Below, piece by piece: positions 16,600 through 23,489 of a DNA stretch of 64,000 nucleotides (within the stretch, counting starts at the first letter, position 1; every line of letters begins with the position of its first letter). The translations under genes were made by a program, and so were the position numbers. Under the pieces are notes generated by a model, which did not search any database, was not told the DNA's origin, and was given only the letters and a program-made list of their open reading frames with translations. The DNA is from an uncultured Porphyromonadaceae bacterium (GTDB lineage Bacteria; Bacteroidota; Bacteroidia; Bacteroidales; Muribaculaceae), in the NCBI GenBank assembly GCA_947643165.1, contig CANRVB010000002.1, forward strand, positions 124,001-188,000, in the 5' to 3' direction.

Positions 16600-17430
16600 A
16601 TGTGGTTAACAAGCTCATCTGTAGGACGTAAGCTCGTGATGGCTATCACCGGCGCGTGTCTTGTCCTATTCCTAACGTTTCATGCGTTGATGAACGGTGT
16701 CGCGCTCTTCTGGCCTGCGGCTTACAATGCCATTTGCGCCTTCCTCGGAGCAAACTGGTATGCGCTGATCGCGTCAGCCGGTCTCGCCGCACTGTTTATC
16801 ATTCACATCATCTATGCACTGTGGCTGACGGTTCAAAACCGCAAGGCCCGTGGTAATGACCGCTATGCTGTAAGCAGCAAGCCTGCACAGGTAGAATGGT
16901 CTTCGCAGAACATGCTCGTACTCGGTATCGTAGTAGTGGCATTCCTCGTATTTCACCTTATCCAGTTCTGGGCAAAGATGCAGCTTGCTGAAATCTGCCA
17001 CACTCCGGTTCACGTAAACGGTGAGATCGTAGCTCCCCAGAGCGGTACAATGTTCCTTCAGCTCGCATTCAGCCAGATCATCACTCCCATCGTATATATC
17101 ATTGCGCTGGTAGCACTCTGGTTCCACATGAACCACGGTTTCTGGTCTATGTTCCAGTCGGCCGGTTGGGATAACGACACCTGGCTTCCCCGCCTCAAGA
17201 CTATCTCATGCTGGTGGACCACTATCGTAGTAGGTCTGTTCATCGCTCAGGCTGTAGTATTTACCGTACAGGCTCACCGTGGCGCATATCTTACAGATCC
17301 GCAGCTCGTTGAACAGTACAACGAGTTCAATGCCCACATGGGTGAAGGCTCTATGCAGCCCGCTTATCCCGGCAGCACATGTTCTCTGCCTGCTGAGTGT
17401 GCCAACCCCGAGACCTGCACCAACAATTGA
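16600..17430 (+). CDS. sdhC: Succinate dehydrogenase/fumarate reductase cytochrome b subunit
   Basis: A 276-residue membrane subunit of the Bacteroidetes type with about five transmembrane helices. It starts MWLTSSSVGRKLVMAITG. Histidines suited to diheme binding occur in FHALMN, IIHIIYALW, FHLIQFW and FHMNHGFWS. It anchors SdhA and SdhB and passes electrons to or from menaquinone. The last 35 residues are an unusual tail after the final helix with three cysteines (CSLPAEC, ETC). sdhA starts 54 bases downstream. The promoter at 16507-16537 drives the operon. Confidence 0.93.
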   Translation: MWLTSSSVGRKLVMAITGACLVLFLTFHALMNGVALFWPAAYNAICAFLGANWYALIASAGLAALFIIHIIYALWLTVQNRKARGNDRYAVSSKPAQVEWSSQNMLVLGIVVVAFLVFHLIQFWAKMQLAEICHTPVHVNGEIVAPQSGTMFLQLAFSQIITPIVYIIALVALWFHMNHGFWSMFQSAGWDNDTWLPRLKTISCWWTTIVVGLFIAQAVVFTVQAHRGAYLTDPQLVEQYNEFNAHMGEGSMQPAYPGSTCSLPAECANPETCTNN

Positions 17431-17484
17431 TTGCAGTATCGGCCGTTAATTAATTAGTAATATCTAAACTCCCCATATACTGTT

Positions 17485-19518
17485 ATGGCAGACTACACAA
17501 AGCTCGAGGGCATGATCGATTCAACACCCATAATGAAAGATTATGCCGATATCGAATCAGCCAAACTCCCCGAATTTCAGATTGACTCAAAGATACCGGA
17601 AGGTCCGATAGCTGAGAAGTGGACCAACTACAAGGCTCACCAGAAACTTGTCAATCCGGCCAACAAGCGTAACCTCGACGTTATCGTGGTCGGTACAGGT
17701 CTGGCAGGTGCTTCGGCCGCCTCTACTCTCGGCGAACTCGGTTTCAACGTATACAACTTCTGCATTCAGGATTCTCCCCGTCGCGCTCACTCGATCGCTG
17801 CTCAGGGTGGTATCAATGCAGCTAAAGATTATCAGAACGACGGCGACTCTGTTTACCGCCTGTTCTATGACACTGTGAAAGGCGGTGACTTCCGTTCGCG
17901 CGAAGCCAATGTATACCGTCTGGCAGAGGTGTCGAACAATATCATTGACCAGTGCGTGGCACAGGGTGTACCTTTCGCCCGCGAGTATGGCGGTCTCCTG
18001 GCCAACCGTTCGTTCGGTGGCGCACAGGTAAGCCGTACATTCTATGCCAAGGGTCAGACAGGCCAGCAGCTCCTTCTGGGTGCTTACTCATCGCTCAACC
18101 GTCAGATCAACAAGGGCACAGTGCGTTCGTTCAACCGTCGTGAGATGCTCGATCTCGTTATCATCGACGGCCGCGCACGCGGTATCATTGTCCGCAACCT
18201 CATCACCGGCGAGATAGAGCGCTATGCCGCCCACGCAGTCGTTCTGGCTACCGGTGGTTATGGCCGTACGTTCTTCCTGTCGACAAACGCCATGGGTTGT
18301 AACGGCTCTGCCGCTATCCAGGTGTTCAAGAAGGGCGCTTATCTCAGCAACCTCGCCTTCACTCAGATCCACCCCACCTGTATTCCCGTTCACGGAGAAG
18401 ATCAGTCGAAGCTCACACTTATGAGTGAGTCACTCCGTAACGACGGTCGCATCTGGGTTCCCAAGAAGAAGGAAGATGCCGAGGCTATCCGTGCAGGCAA
18501 GAAGAAACCTACCGATATTCCCGACGAGGACCGCGACTTCTATCTGGAGCGCCGTTATCCGGCATTCGGCAACCTCTGTCCCCGCGATATCGCCAGCCGC
18601 GCAGCCAAGGAGCGTTGTGACGCAGGCTATGGTGTAGGTACAGGCAATGCCGTTTATCTTGACTTCAAGTATGCCATCAACCGTCTCGGCAAGGATGCTG
18701 TGGCCGACCGCTACGGCAACCTCTTCGATATGTATCAGATGATCTCTGATGACAATCCTTATGAGACACCTATGATGATCTTCCCTGCCAGCCACTACAC
18801 TATGGGCGGTATATGGGTTGACTACGAGCTCCAGACCTCTATCAAGGGTCTCTTCGCGATAGGTGAGTGCAACTTCTCGGATCACGGTGCGAACCGTCTG
18901 GGTGCCAGCGCGCTCATGCAGGGTCTTGCCGATGGTTATTTCGTTCTGCCCTACACTATGCAGAACTACCTGAGCGACCAGATCAAGGTGTCGCGCACAA
19001 CTTTCGATACCTCGCACCCCGAATTCGACGAGGCTGAGAAGGCCGTACGTGCACGTATCGAGAAGCTGATGAACATCAAGGGTACCAAGAGCCCCGACGA
19101 GATCCACAAGAAGCTGGGTCACGTGATGTGGAATCTCGTAGGTATGGGACGTACACTCCAGAGCCTTGTCAAGGCTATCGACGAGGTAGAGCAGGTAAGA
19201 AAGGAATTCTATACCGATCTCCGCATCGTGGGCAAGGCTGATGACCTCAATACCGAACTTGAAAAGGCACTGCGTCTTGAAGACTTCATCGTGATGGCCA
19301 AGATGATGGCTATCGACGCTCTTCACCGCAACGAGAGCTGTGGAGCTCACTTCCGCGAGGAATACCAGACAGCCGACGGCGAGGCCGCACGTAACGACCA
19401 GGACTACATGTATGTAAGCTGCTGGAAGTATACCGGCGATACCGAGAAGCCTGTTCTTCTCAAGGAGCCCCTGAAGTATGAGGCTATCAAGGTTCAGACC
19501 CGTAACTATAAGTCGTGA
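17485..19518 (+). CDS. sdhA: Succinate dehydrogenase/fumarate reductase flavoprotein subunit
   Basis: A 677-residue catalytic subunit. The FAD-binding motif [16 protein letters not shown] is near residue 70. [12 protein letters not shown] holds the histidine for covalent FAD. HPTCIPV, with the catalytic region after it, and [23 protein letters not shown] complete the signature. It interconverts succinate and fumarate; in an anaerobe the fumarate-reducing direction is expected. There are about 30 extra residues before the usual start region ([13 protein letters not shown]); the annotated ATG is kept because the frame is open and no better start is seen close by. Confidence 0.97.
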
Positions 19519-19561
19519 TAACTCCCACTTTCCCTAACCCCACATCCAAATTGAACTATCA

Positions 19562-20317
19562 ATGGAAACAACTATAAGCGTAAATCTTAGAATTTGGCGT
19601 CAACGTGGTCCTAAGGAAAAAGGCCAGTTCGTCACCTATCATCTCGACAACGTATCTACAGGATCATCGTTTCTCGAGATGCTCGATATGCTCAACCAGC
19701 AGCTCGTAGAAAAGAACGAGGAGCCGGTTGTGTTCGACAGCGACTGCCGCGAGGGTATCTGCGGTATGTGCTCGCTCTATATCAACGGACACCCTCATGG
19801 TCCCGTTCAGGGCATCACAACCTGTCAGCTCCACATGCGTAAGTTCAACAACGGCGATACTATCACTATCGAGCCCTGGCGTTCGGCTGCGTTCCCTGTG
19901 ATACGCGACCTCATGGTCAACCGTAATGCTTTCGACCAGATCCAGCAGGCCGGTGGCTACGTATCGTTCAACTGCGGAGGCGCCCAGGATGCCAACTGTC
20001 TGCCTATCTCGAAGAAGGTGGCCGACATGGCTATGGACTCTGCTACATGTATCGGTTGCGGTGCTTGCGTAGCTGCTTGTAAGAACGGTTCCGCCATGCT
20101 GTTTGTAAGTGCCAAGGTAAGCCAGTTCGCTCTCCTGCCTCAGGGCCAGGTTGAACGTAAACGTCGCGCACGTGCAATGGTGGCCAAGATGGACGAGCTC
20201 GGATTCGGTAACTGTACCAACACCGGAGCTTGCGCCGCCGAGTGCCCCAAGAATGTGCCTCTGAGCAATATCGCACGTCTCAACCGCGAATTCATCAAAG
20301 CCAAGTGCGCTGAGTAA
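19562..20317 (+). CDS. sdhB: Succinate dehydrogenase/fumarate reductase iron-sulfur subunit
   Basis: A 251-residue protein carrying three clusters. The 2Fe-2S cysteines are in CREGICGMC and TTCQLH. The 4Fe-4S site is [11 protein letters not shown], and the other cluster ligands lie in [14 protein letters not shown]. It links the flavin in SdhA to the heme-quinone subunit SdhC. It is the last gene of the operon, 43 bases after sdhA, and is followed by a perfect terminator hairpin. Confidence 0.97.
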
Positions 20318-20336: not shown

Positions 20337-20384
20337 AAAAAGTTAACCGGCCTTGCTCGATTGAGCAAGGCCGGTTAACTTTTT
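20337..20384. terminator. Terminator between sdhB and the convergent barrel gene
   Basis: A perfect 22-bp stem (20337-20358 with 20363-20384) with a 4-base loop, A-rich on the left and T-rich on the right, so it can end transcripts from both sides. Confidence 0.92.
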
Positions 20385-20417: not shown

Positions 20418-21806
20418 TCAGTCGATTGAGAAACGTAGGCCCAGATTAAGGCTGAAATTCCATGGTTTTTCTTTGTATATAGTATTGATAGATGTTCCGT
20501 CATCAAAGAAGTAGCTCACACTTGGCTCTGCGTATATGCCGACATTGTCGGTGATGTTATACTGAGCGCCTATGCCTCCGTTGACCGACCACTGGAGAGG
20601 TTTCTCGCGCAGCGAGTTTGTGGTTGTCTTTTTGGTCAGGCCATACTCTATGTGATGTTCTCTGAGTTTGGCCGACACACACTTGTCGGCCTCTGCGCCT
20701 CCGGTGAGATAGAAGTCGAAGCCTATTACGGAGAATGCCCTGAATTTCACGTTGACAGGAATTCCGATATAGTGCAGCTTCTGGGTGCCGGTCTTATAGT
20801 TTGTCTTGGTGCCCGACTGATAGTCGGTGGTGAGATTGGTGTAGTTGAGACCTGCTTCCAGCGCAATGCGGTCCGACAGGCGGTATGCGAAGCTCAATCC
20901 CATTCTGACAGGCTGGCGGTGATGTTCTTCGGTAGAGTAATAGAGATTGTCGGAATACTCCTGGGCTGCCGCGTCCGACATGGTCGGAACCCTTGTCTGC
21001 AATACGGCGTTGGCCGGATATGACAGGCTGGAAAGCTTGCCGCCGGTGTAGCCTGGCGTTGCGCTGCCCGAATTGAAGGCATAGTTCATGCTGCCCGATG
21101 AGTGCAGATTGATCTCAAGACCGCCTTTGCGCTTGTTCGTGCGCTTGTTGCCGAACAAACGGTTGTCGGCGTATGTGCTTGTATTGCTGCGGTTTCGGGT
21201 GTACAGACTATTGTAAGGTTGAGCGTTGTTGTTGTCGGCCGACAGGCTGTCCCGACCGGCGGGAGCATTTATCTCGGCAAGCATGTCATTGTCCTGACCG
21301 TATTCCGTCGTGGGGTCGGCGATGGCGGCAGTGGATACCGTGGCATTTTCAGGCAGATTGTTTTCCTGTGAGCTTTTGGCCCTTGCACGTATGGCATTGG
21401 CCAGAAAATTGCTTGCATATCTGCTTATGGCATTCTTGCGGTCGGCTGCCGGCTCCTGATCCTGCGGTTGCTGATCGGTATTCTGTGCGTACGATGCGTT
21501 CAGGTTTTCCTCAGCCCGGACAGTATTCACTTTCGATGCTATCTGGGCTGTGTTGATATTCAGATTGTCGTTTGTCGACATGGCGAGATAGCCGGCCGTG
21601 AGGGCAGCTGCGACTATAGCTGCGGCGTCAAGCGACCTATGCAGTATCAAAACCGGCTTCTTTCTGGCAGGCGCGTTCTTCTTGGCCGGGAGCTGTTGCA
21701 TGCCGGCGTTGATGCGGTTCCACAGATCTGCAGGGAGCTCGGTCTCGTAGTCGCGCATCCGGTCCTTTATGTCATCTGTCCATGTATGTTTCATATCGTC
21801 TGTCAT
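20418..21806 (-). CDS. Dma-like trans-envelope anti-sigma protein with C-terminal outer-membrane barrel
   Basis: A 462-residue protein. Residues 1-55 are charged and likely cytoplasmic (DDIKDRMRDYETELPADLWNRI). One hydrophobic helix follows at about 58-76. Then comes a polar, low-complexity linker of roughly 150 residues, rich in Asn, Ala and Gln. From about residue 230 there are amphipathic strands typical of a small outer-membrane beta-barrel, ending in GLRFSID. This matches the dual membrane-spanning anti-sigma (Dma) layout described in Bacteroides. The start overlaps the sigma factor stop by 4 bases, so the two are translationally coupled. The role as the sigma factor's partner is inferred from layout and context; an ordinary PorT-like barrel is the alternative. 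Confidence 0.75.
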   Translation of the reverse strand: MTDDMKHTWTDDIKDRMRDYETELPADLWNRINAGMQQLPAKKNAPARKKPVLILHRSLDAAAIVAAALTAGYLAMSTNDNLNINTAQIASKVNTVRAEENLNASYAQNTDQQPQDQEPAADRKNAISRYASNFLANAIRARAKSSQENNLPENATVSTAAIADPTTEYGQDNDMLAEINAPAGRDSLSADNNNAQPYNSLYTRNRSNTSTYADNRLFGNKRTNKRKGGLEINLHSSGSMNYAFNSGSATPGYTGGKLSSLSYPANAVLQTRVPTMSDAAAQEYSDNLYYSTEEHHRQPVRMGLSFAYRLSDRIALEAGLNYTNLTTDYQSGTKTNYKTGTQKLHYIGIPVNVKFRAFSVIGFDFYLTGGAEADKCVSAKLREHHIEYGLTKKTTTNSLREKPLQWSVNGGIGAQYNITDNVGIYAEPSVSYFFDDGTSINTIYKEKPWNFSLNLGLRFSID

Positions 21807-22360
21807 TGCTGATTTTGATATTGTTTAATCTTGGCTGCAAGCAGGGCCTTGGCCCTGTGCAGTTGCGAGGCTGAGCTGCTTTCTTTTATTCCGAGCAGTT
21901 CGGCAATTTCTTTGTGTGTGTGTTCTTCGATCACGTATAGATTGAAGATAGTGCGATAGCCGTCAGGCAATTCTCTGATGAGTGTGTGTATTACTTCCGG
22001 TGTCAGACCGTCTATTTCCGGTTCTTCATCTGCAGGATGTTCGGTCAGGTCGTTTACGTCAGTCCAGTCGGTCAACCCGTTGTCTTTTATAAACCTGAGC
22101 GATTCGTTTATCACGATTCTGCTCATCCAGCTCCTGAATGATCCCTCACCTCTGTATTCAAAGTTCCCCAACGCAGAAAATATCTTGATGAAGCTGTCCT
22201 GTATCACATCTTTGACATTCTCATCGTTCACGATATATCGCGAACAGATAGCGTATAGACGTCCACCATACAGATCGTATATCGATTTGTATGCGCTCGG
22301 CACACCTTTCATGGCCTGACAGATCAGGTTGAACTCGGTTATGGCAGACTCTTTACTCAT
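21803..22360 (-). CDS. ECF RNA polymerase sigma factor (Das-like)
   Basis: A 185-residue ECF sigma factor. Region 2 is visible as AYKSIYDLYGGRLYAICSRYIVND with VKDVIQDSFIKIF and FRSWMSRIVINESL. An acidic linker follows (ADEEPEIDG), then region 4: LPDGYRTIFNLYVIEEHTHKEIAELLGIKESSSASQLHRAK. It would direct RNA polymerase to a small set of envelope genes. The anti-sigma-like gene overlaps its stop by 4 bases. A NigD-like lipoprotein gene lies upstream on the same strand, separated by a hairpin. Similar trios occur in Bacteroides as Das1, Dma1 and NigD1, from memory. Confidence 0.92.
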   Translation of the reverse strand: MSKESAITEFNLICQAMKGVPSAYKSIYDLYGGRLYAICSRYIVNDENVKDVIQDSFIKIFSALGNFEYRGEGSFRSWMSRIVINESLRFIKDNGLTDWTDVNDLTEHPADEEPEIDGLTPEVIHTLIRELPDGYRTIFNLYVIEEHTHKEIAELLGIKESSSASQLHRAKALLAAKIKQYQNQQ

Positions 22361-22391
22361 TTGTCGTCGAGAGAGCAGGTCTTTTTTTTGA

Positions 22392-22427
22392 AAGCAAGCG
22401 GAATCAGATGATAGATTCCGCTTGCTT
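22392..22427 (-). terminator. Hairpin between the NigD-like and sigma factor genes
   Basis: A perfect 14-bp stem (22392-22405 with 22414-22427) with an 8-base loop. In the minus-strand transcript it is followed by A rather than U residues, so it may be an attenuator or a processing hairpin that splits expression of the two genes rather than a full terminator. Confidence 0.55.
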
Positions 22428-22463
22428 CTGCGTGAAGCTGATTATAATAGAAGTTAGGTTCGG

Positions 22464-23192
22464 TCAGTCGATTTGTTTGAGCGGGCGGAGCGACAGATAC
22501 ATTTCTGCCGTTCGCGGACCTGTCGGCGAAAGCCAGTTGATCTTGATTGTAGCCCGGTTGTCGCTGTTGCCCTCCACTATGTCGTTAAGGTTGAAGGCAA
22601 TCACAGCTTGGCCGTACTGTTGTCCTATCAGATCTCCGTTGGCTTTGTGCCTGAGTTCAAATTCCAGCGGATTATCCGGATTTATATCTCGTATTAGATA
22701 GAATTCGTGTCTTGAAGTTACTGAACCGCTGGTCAGCGCAGTCAGGTGGAGAGTCAGGTATCCATCCTCGGCATTGGTCATCCAATCGTCTATTATGTGT
22801 ACAGGATCGTTTCCATATTGGGCGTTGTTATCTGTCAGAAGATTTGGAACGGTATTTTTTGTCTGGATGCTGTCGATCTCAAGCAATGTCACCTTTTGAA
22901 AGGTCATCTCGTCTTCGGCCTTGATCTCCGACGTTTGCCTTATGGTGGCGATCGCGCGGACTTCCTTATTGCCGAACGGTGAAGTTGCCATGTTGGTGGG
23001 AACGAGGGTATGCGTGCCTGTGAGTTTCATCACGAATCCCCCGTTGTCGTCGGGCACTACTGTCACAACAGCTGTAGCAGTAGTAGGGGATTGCAGATTG
23101 GCGATATCATCATCGTAGTCCTTGCACGACTGGGCCAGCATAGCGGTAATGCTGATTATGGTGGTTAAAAGTATTTTGTGAAATAGTTTCAT
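22464..23192 (-). CDS. NigD-like lipoprotein
   Basis: A 242-residue lipoprotein with the signal ending in MLAQSC (Cys23). The mature part begins KDYDDD, an acidic run often seen in surface-exported Bacteroidetes lipoproteins. The C-terminal half looks like the NigD beta-sandwich, with NPLEFELRHKANGD and a late strand-rich region ending SLRPLKQID. It sits upstream of the ECF sigma factor on the same strand. In Bacteroides a NigD-type lipoprotein belongs to the Das1/Dma1 vesiculation circuit, so this may be the sigma factor's target. Its own biochemical role is unknown. Confidence 0.75.
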   Translation of the reverse strand: MKLFHKILLTTIISITAMLAQSCKDYDDDIANLQSPTTATAVVTVVPDDNGGFVMKLTGTHTLVPTNMATSPFGNKEVRAIATIRQTSEIKAEDEMTFQKVTLLEIDSIQTKNTVPNLLTDNNAQYGNDPVHIIDDWMTNAEDGYLTLHLTALTSGSVTSRHEFYLIRDINPDNPLEFELRHKANGDLIGQQYGQAVIAFNLNDIVEGNSDNRATIKINWLSPTGPRTAEMYLSLRPLKQID

Positions 23193-23489
23193 AATGATTG
23201 TTTGATCGGTTGTCTATATATATAATCAAGCATTCCGCGGAATCTTGCATGACATAACAGAAAAAAAAATCACTTTTTTGCAAAAAAAAATGCATCTGTG
23301 GCTTATGAAAGGTGAATTTTTCAGGCGTCGGTAGGCGTTAGGGCTTCCGGATAAGTGCTTGTTTATAGGTAATATAGATGAGGCTCGCAACCGATTGCCA
23401 CAGTGCGGGCCTTTAGCTTTGCACGCGACAGGTTGCAAGAACAATCGTTAGGCGGTTGTTTGGGTTTGATATATGGCAGCGGGCTGCAC
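23193..23489. other. Intergenic region between the NigD-like gene and menA
   Basis: No gene is seen. A near-perfect dyad sits at 23228-23247 (see findings). A-tracts and T-tracts lie at about 23262-23290. A plus-strand TAGCTTTG is at 23414-23421, without a well-spaced -33. A hairpin at 23440-23460 could end the menA transcript. The rest is unexplained. Confidence 0.5.
23440..23460 (-). terminator. Putative terminator after menA
   Basis: An 8-bp stem (23440-23447 with 23453-23460, one G-T pair) and a 5-base loop lie 30 bases past the menA stop. There is no strong U-tract. Confidence 0.4.

Follow-up and report, generated by a model that had tools for sequence, protein, structure and literature searches.

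In Bacteroidota, the way in which outer-membrane damage is signalled to the genes is poorly known, and a bridge made of a single protein chain is a leading candidate. As far as the accessible text of the reports cited here goes, proteins of the Dma family combine an N-terminal anti-sigma domain, a single transmembrane helix, a long disordered tether and a C-terminal β-barrel, and they are encoded beside their own extracytoplasmic function (ECF) sigma factor of type ECF21, which they bind and repress (PMC13088901). Bacteroides thetaiotaomicron has Dma1, Dma2 and the sigma-fused Dma3. Vesicle production rises on loss of Dma1 or Dma2; the rise that follows Dma1 loss requires NigD1, whereas Dma2 loss acts without raising nigD1 (PMC13088901). 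In Phocaeicola vulgatus, an EcfO-Reo-nigD version of the system is associated with outer-membrane stress and toxin protection (PMC9308784, PMC13114119). Disruption of the anti-sigma gene of this species gives partial protection from two antibacterial toxins and a longer O-antigen, and 15 genes change at a strict cut-off (PMC9308784). The nigD genes of the regulon need EcfO, and one P. vulgatus NigD is absent in broth unless reo is deleted or antibacterial stress is applied, and needs EcfO-Reo in the mouse gut; the function of NigD is described as unknown (PMC13114119). Here, we analysed a locus of this kind in a stretch of 64,000 nucleotides (the window) from an uncultured bacterium of the Muribaculaceae, in which a nigD gene, an ECF sigma factor gene and the gene of a 462-residue anti-sigma candidate follow each other on the minus strand.

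It is quite probable that these genes form a Dma/Reo-type sigma/anti-sigma switch with NigD first in the operon read by the sigma factor, a reading that rests on genes, domains, homology, gene order and a conserved promoter motif. That the family exists, is restricted to Bacteroidota and is linked to NigD has already been published. What the present locus adds is the same-strand order nigD, sigma, anti-sigma in its own bacterial family, a promoter motif common to many loci and a short list of candidate targets. The first-pass annotation of this DNA had pointed to such a circuit outside Bacteroides. This would not be new, since the accessible text of the cited reports ties Dma proteins to the phylum Bacteroidota and not to Bacteroides alone (PMC13088901) and places EcfO, Reo and nigD in P. 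vulgatus (PMC9308784, PMC13114119), and the claim of a first case outside Bacteroides was dropped. In the open literature, we found no report joining Muribaculaceae, an anti-sigma factor and outer membrane vesicles. The window offers a compact version of the system, with three genes in a row, one NigD of the NF051862 type, a predicted promoter and few other close predicted sites; this compactness would make both damage signalling and NigD function testable outside the genera studied so far.

The locus shares with Das1/Dma1 and NigD1 of B. thetaiotaomicron the layout of the anti-sigma protein, the paired ECF sigma factor and the tie to a lipoprotein of the NigD1/NigD2 family. With EcfO/Reo and nigD (M0N98_03760-03762 in P. 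vulgatus, the locus tags of reo, ecfO and one nigD being consecutive; an EcfO is also known in B. fragilis), it shares a nigD adjoining the pair and an anti-sigma protein that ends in a barrel. The nigD genes of that system depend on the sigma factor, and in the window a conserved motif lies upstream of nigD. However, the P. vulgatus regulon contains three nigD genes, whereas the genome of the window, which is 88.5% complete, holds one match to NF051862.

Genes, proteins and relatives of the locus

The nigD gene (22464..23192, minus strand) encodes a lipoprotein of 242 residues that scores 150 bits (cut-off 60) with NF051862, the NCBIfam NigD1/NigD2 model named for BT4005 and BT4719, and matches NigD_N and NigD_C of Pfam above their cut-offs, which bears out the NigD-like lipoprotein gene proposed beside the sigma gene in the first-pass annotation. 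The protein reads AQSC and then KDYDDD, and this acid-rich stretch after the lipid-carrying cysteine resembles a lipoprotein export signal. At least two acidic residues stand among the six that follow the cysteine in 51 of 55 NigD relatives; the four exceptions, kept in the count, look like errors in picking the cysteine or the start. For Bacteroides, the accessible text reports that the lipoprotein SusG needs an acid-rich segment at this place to be exposed at the surface and packed into vesicles (PMC6222051), and by analogy the NigD of the window is likely exposed at the surface. In two Parabacteroides-like loci (L102 in G351 and L155 in G252), a different ECF sigma factor lies behind a further NigD gene, and in L102 a short ordinary anti-sigma candidate of 172 residues comes next; NigD genes accompany sigma switches of more than one kind.

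The sigma factor gene (21803..22360, minus strand) encodes 185 residues with Sigma70_r2 and Sigma70_r4_2 above their cut-offs, 34-56% identical to 17 relatives; no model named ECF21 came up in the Pfam and NCBIfam library searches of the window proteins. It overlaps the anti-sigma gene (20418..21806, minus strand) by four bases (ATGA, 21803-21806), and the open reading frames, coordinates and overlap given earlier agree with the list of reading frames and with the sequence. An overlap of exactly four bases recurs in 25 of 91 sigma/anti-sigma pairs from the fetched loci. Because 11 of 17 aligned relatives, their starts called mechanically, begin at Met5 of the window protein, the real anti-sigma protein may have 458 residues, without gene overlap.

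The anti-sigma candidate has two outer-membrane β-barrel models of Pfam above cut-off. Its AlphaFold2 model, built on an alignment of 14 rows, has a mean predicted local distance difference test (pLDDT) score of 55 and a predicted template modelling (pTM) score of 0.43, and only the barrel is modelled well, with strands at 291-461 and pLDDT 74-90 over 291-460. This small C-terminal barrel probably has eight strands; Foldseek matches OmpA, OmpW, OmpX and NspA (best E 5e-7, target TM-scores near 0.5-0.6), and no relative of the protein was found by sequence in the Protein Data Bank at E 0.1. Residues 100-228 and 238-288 fall below a pLDDT of 50, in agreement with the disordered tether of Dma proteins. 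Ahead of the tether, the model places a long helix at 52-80 with low confidence (pLDDT 41-54) and two N-terminal helices at 3-23 and 26-37 (pLDDT 47-57). The hydropathy peak of 1.62 at residues 52-70 lies at the low end of 92 rows, all of which reach 1.6 with a median of 2.2, and gives weak support to one membrane helix within 52-80. The structure prediction that had been called for thus returned a barrel, and the 50 residues that precede the helix argue against a cleaved signal peptide. A pattern of W, M, Y, P and W is conserved at the N-terminus among aligned relatives.

A single transmembrane helix, a disordered tether, a C-terminal barrel and an adjoining ECF sigma gene, all part of the Dma definition, are therefore found together in the window. 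The likeness to the Dma1/Das1 layout suggested earlier agrees with the Dma description in the accessible text of PMC13088901, and the pair is homologous to Bacteroides-like pairs of that family. As for the single-chain anatomy proposed earlier, barrel, linker, one helix and an N-terminal part were recovered by Pfam, AlphaFold2 and hydropathy; the N-terminal half is less secure, being a low-confidence model whose start may be Met5.

We then surveyed relatives with a profile of 18 anti-sigma proteins (A1), 12 rows of which are family members found by their NigD, the window included. It matches 64 of 149 genomes of the window's family at 1e-20 and, at order level, 58 of 247 genomes at 1e-10, while an NF051862 search gives some match in 130 of the 149 family genomes, 72 of them above cut-off. 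Of the A1 matches of at least 250 bits (40 in the family, own genome included), at least 35 share their contig with a listed NF051862 NigD that is no more than 3 kb away, as judged by comparing the lists by eye; leaving out the 12 rows used to build the profile, at least 23 of 28 do. Among the NigD matches listed, none lies within 3 kb of the strong A1 match in five genomes (G112, G093, G120, G058 and G077), and a weak NigD near G120 or G058 is possible. The fetched loci contain 91 pairs with sigma and anti-sigma genes side by side on one strand, two of which duplicate others. NigD lies upstream on the same strand in 29 of these pairs, divergently in 19 and downstream in 9, and is absent within 1.2 kb in 34. 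Many pairs were chosen by their NigD, so that adjacency in the 33 family pairs is biased; the set of 64 family genomes and the Bacteroides-like set described below were selected by the anti-sigma profile and not by NigD. No relative was found in viral contigs. Weaker barrel matches in the family (e.g. G119:C69, G130:C2, G017:C37 and G103:C63) lie in many cases in frames of about 520-655 residues instead of 420, possibly fusions of the Dma3 type that begin with a sigma domain.

Promoter motif and candidate targets

Upstream of nigD, many loci of the family share a two-box motif, TGCAAG[A/G]TT[T/C], 11-12 bases and GATT[A/T][A/T], that is, a TGCAAGATT-like box followed by a GATTATA-like one. The window has one such site on the minus strand, TGCAAGATTC-N12-GATTATA (23221..23249), a predicted promoter located 28 bases from the ATG of nigD. 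It has no mismatch and is the sole match at up to two mismatches in the 64 kb, where 0.08 are expected; a search of the window found no second copy before the sigma gene. In 26 of 40 loci, exact TGCAAGRTT falls within the interval from 200 bases upstream to 40 bases downstream of the called nigD start; 7 further copies occur elsewhere in 445 kb, both strands counted. Since the two-box motif lies just upstream of nigD, here and in many relatives, NigD probably heads the operon of the sigma factor, and the lipoprotein, previously proposed as a possible target, becomes a likely one.

We searched 36 genomes for a strict two-box pattern, namely the own genome, 19 relatives that have the locus and 16 genomes that lack a strong NigD (two of which, G036 and G020, hold a more distant barrel protein). 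The pattern occurs in 12 of the 19 relatives, once each and always just upstream of nigD, matches at nigD being partly built in as the pattern was designed from these upstream regions. For that reason, its near-absence elsewhere is the informative part: it was found in 0 of the 16 genomes without a strong NigD, and the reversed pattern had no match in the 36 genomes. The motif may already be known, given that an EcfO motif of B. fragilis is reported as identified (PMC7366714).

In the own genome, the strict pattern gives three matches, the nigD operon, C36:2359 and C11:52018. The first base of the site at C36:2359 (L242:2359-3308) lies 77 bases before the ATG of the gene of a 290-residue lipoprotein. 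This gene directly follows that of a TonB-dependent receptor, its product has no match in Pfam, and it is a candidate second target of the sigma factor. The site at C11:52018 (L241:3019-3145) is a perfect motif that faces the end of a convergent gene of 689 residues, which has metallopeptidase matches below cut-off only, and is followed by a very stable 19-bp hairpin. A small RNA was considered at this site and rejected. None of 33 other genomes of the genus gave a match to the region at E 0.01, and further copies of its hairpin part are present in the own genome, which makes it look like a repeat or a terminator. A looser search adds C11:26994 (L253:1501-2326), with one mismatch, upstream of the gene of a 234-residue probable exported protein that we take, by eye, to resemble SIMPL/DUF541 proteins, and C4:14250, with two mismatches, inside a reading frame of the other strand. 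Because the same search yields 5 matches in the own genome but 7, each with two mismatches, in G053, a genome that does not match the anti-sigma profile, only exact and one-mismatch sites carry weight. One or two sites beyond nigD may therefore mark other targets.

Proposed switch and its output

At rest, the N-terminal part of the 462-residue protein would probably hold the ECF sigma factor at the inner membrane, with the C-terminal barrel in the outer membrane and the disordered tether crossing the periplasm. A disturbance of the outer membrane would be passed along the chain and free the sigma factor, which would then read the promoter at 23221-23249 and raise its own operon, NigD first. 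The lipoprotein would be expected at the cell surface, and it could increase the shedding of vesicles. We infer the co-transcription of the three genes, the sigma binding, the signal, the recognition of the motif by the sigma factor, the surface exposure and the vesicle output.

Several observations weigh against this reading. Model confidence is low for the N-terminal helices and for the membrane helix, and at the N-terminus of the anti-sigma candidate the sole family match is weak (NF052375, 17 bits for a cut-off of 100). The strict promoter pattern is absent in 7 of the 19 relatives. Within the own genus, moreover, the anti-sigma profile matches just 3 of the 10 genomes.

The first-pass annotation had gone further and proposed a vesicle-control circuit. 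A Dma-type pair homologous to the Bacteroides-like ones is indeed present, but in the light of the stress and toxin-protection phenotypes described in the accessible text of PMC9308784 and PMC13114119 'vesicle control' is too narrow a name. The version in which the switch serves vesicle control and NigD is the vesicle inducer is a tentative possibility to which we lean less than to its opposite. The NigD1 requirement after Dma1 loss described above speaks for it, and so do the fit of the window NigD to the NigD1/NigD2 model NF051862 and the acid-rich stretch, similar to the signal linked with exposure on the surface and with packing into vesicles. However, the P. vulgatus pair of this kind is described as mounting an envelope-stress response with partial toxin protection and longer O-antigen, the vesicles that follow Dma2 loss appear without a rise of nigD1, and nothing in the sequence indicates vesicles. 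We read the locus as a probable switch for stress at the outer membrane, of which NigD would be a main product. This fits the literature at least as well, and more vesicles may be one of its effects.

Relation to the Dma classes, remaining alternatives and neighbouring features

In the genus that we call Bacteroides-like, its name being inferred for the compared genomes, 78 of 80 genomes match the anti-sigma profile, as do 48 of the 48 of good quality. A 16S primer site of the Bacteroides group, looked for in 44 genomes, is exact in G311 and has one mismatch in G206, both of this genus, but it is present with two mismatches in G365 of a different family as well. Twenty stretches were taken from 12 of these genomes, and class labels were assigned by hand. 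In class 1, nigD is divergent from the sigma gene in 11 of 12 loci (13 of 14 with two more found earlier through their NigD), whereas in the window it lies upstream on the same strand; the best identity of a class 1 anti-sigma protein to that of the window is about 26%. Class 2 (8 loci) has a sigma gene and then the gene of a barrel protein of 320-388 residues, with no NigD within 1.2 kb in 8 of 8. In the only class 2 locus searched with Pfam (L207), the next genes encode DUF4943, DUF4858 and a nitronate monooxygenase, and two others look alike by eye. Since these are the neighbours of Dma2 according to the accessible text of PMC13088901, we took class 2 as the Dma2 class; as the same source names Dma1, Dma2 and the sigma-fused Dma3, class 1 is by elimination Dma1/Reo, an assignment that also fits P. 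vulgatus with its consecutive reo, ecfO and nigD tags.

In class 1, 13 of 13 intergenic regions between the divergent nigD and sigma genes carry GCA[AG]TATTT towards the sigma gene, where a GCATTTATA-like box follows it in most cases; 6 of the 13 also carry it towards nigD. The simplest reading of these sequences is that in both groups nigD and the operon of the sigma factor would be read by that sigma factor, through a single promoter in the window and through two back-to-back promoters in class 1.

Compared with Das2/Dma2 (BT_1559/BT_1558), the window has the same protein layout, but the neighbours there are DUF4943, DUF4858 and nitronate monooxygenase and not NigD, and the profile scores are lower. 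The window sigma factor reaches 175.7 bits with the class 1 profile and 149.3 with that of class 2, and the anti-sigma candidate 185.6 and 101.3; for both proteins, class 1 scores higher in 34 of 34 family rows, window included, although the two profiles differ in rows (13 and 8) and in length, so that their scores are not strictly alike. One locus labelled class 1 (L225) is set apart in both trees, and the class 1 profiles were built without it.

It is unlikely that the pair is by descent closer to Das2/Dma2 than to Das1/Dma1, with the NigD neighbour as a separate tie, but the trees lean this way and weigh against a simple assignment to class 1. The sigma tree sets the 42-row clade of the window beside the Dma2 class with support 99/95, that class standing on a long branch. 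The anti-sigma tree joins the window clade to neither of the two classes and sets class 1 apart from it by a branch whose support, 92/93, is below the star mark. In addition, class 1 equals Dma1 by elimination only. The long branches of the sigma tree, the profile scores and the lack of nearby NigD in all Dma2-class loci argue for the other side, and in the anti-sigma tree the Dma2 class groups with Parabacteroides-type pairs, away from the window clade. The Parabacteroides pairs (L170-L182) likewise have a sigma gene followed by the gene of a barrel-ended anti-sigma protein; they differ from the window in that their lipoprotein is downstream and of another family, the one tested (L152) having a NigD_N-like domain (PF22221), and their anti-sigma proteins are 21-26% identical to that of the window. 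Because trees and profile scores disagree, we claim only that the pair is a member of the Dma family with a Dma1/Reo-like make-up; one-to-one orthology with class 1 is not supported by the trees.

Two further readings concern the way in which the parts of the Dma/Reo-type switch would act. Anti-sigma factors are commonly cut by proteases, and the barrel protein could be cut in the periplasm, the barrel and the anti-sigma part then acting separately. We regard this as improbable, as a single open frame encodes the protein and the aligned relatives keep its layout, although post-translational cutting would still be compatible with that. There is only a slim chance that NigD is also a dedicated partner of the barrel, docking on or plugging its own sensor to reset or tune the switch, with sensor and sensed part made together; this expects a NigD neighbour that recurs in three arrangements, which co-regulation alone would explain too.

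Between nigD and the sigma gene, a spacer of 103 bases contains a perfect 14-bp inverted repeat (22392..22427, minus strand) and folds at -27.3 kcal/mol, a value obtained without a shuffle control; the coding strand has no U-run 3' of the repeat. This hairpin might lower sigma expression relative to that of NigD. Stable folds of the spacer, again without a shuffle control, also occur in some relatives. Three genes resembling those of fumarate reductase/succinate dehydrogenase (cytochrome b, flavoprotein and iron-sulfur subunits, named by eye) lie on the plus strand at 16600-20317 and converge on the nigD operon. A perfect 22-bp inverted repeat with runs of A and T on its flanks (20337..20384, no strand assigned) is likely a terminator common to both convergent operons.

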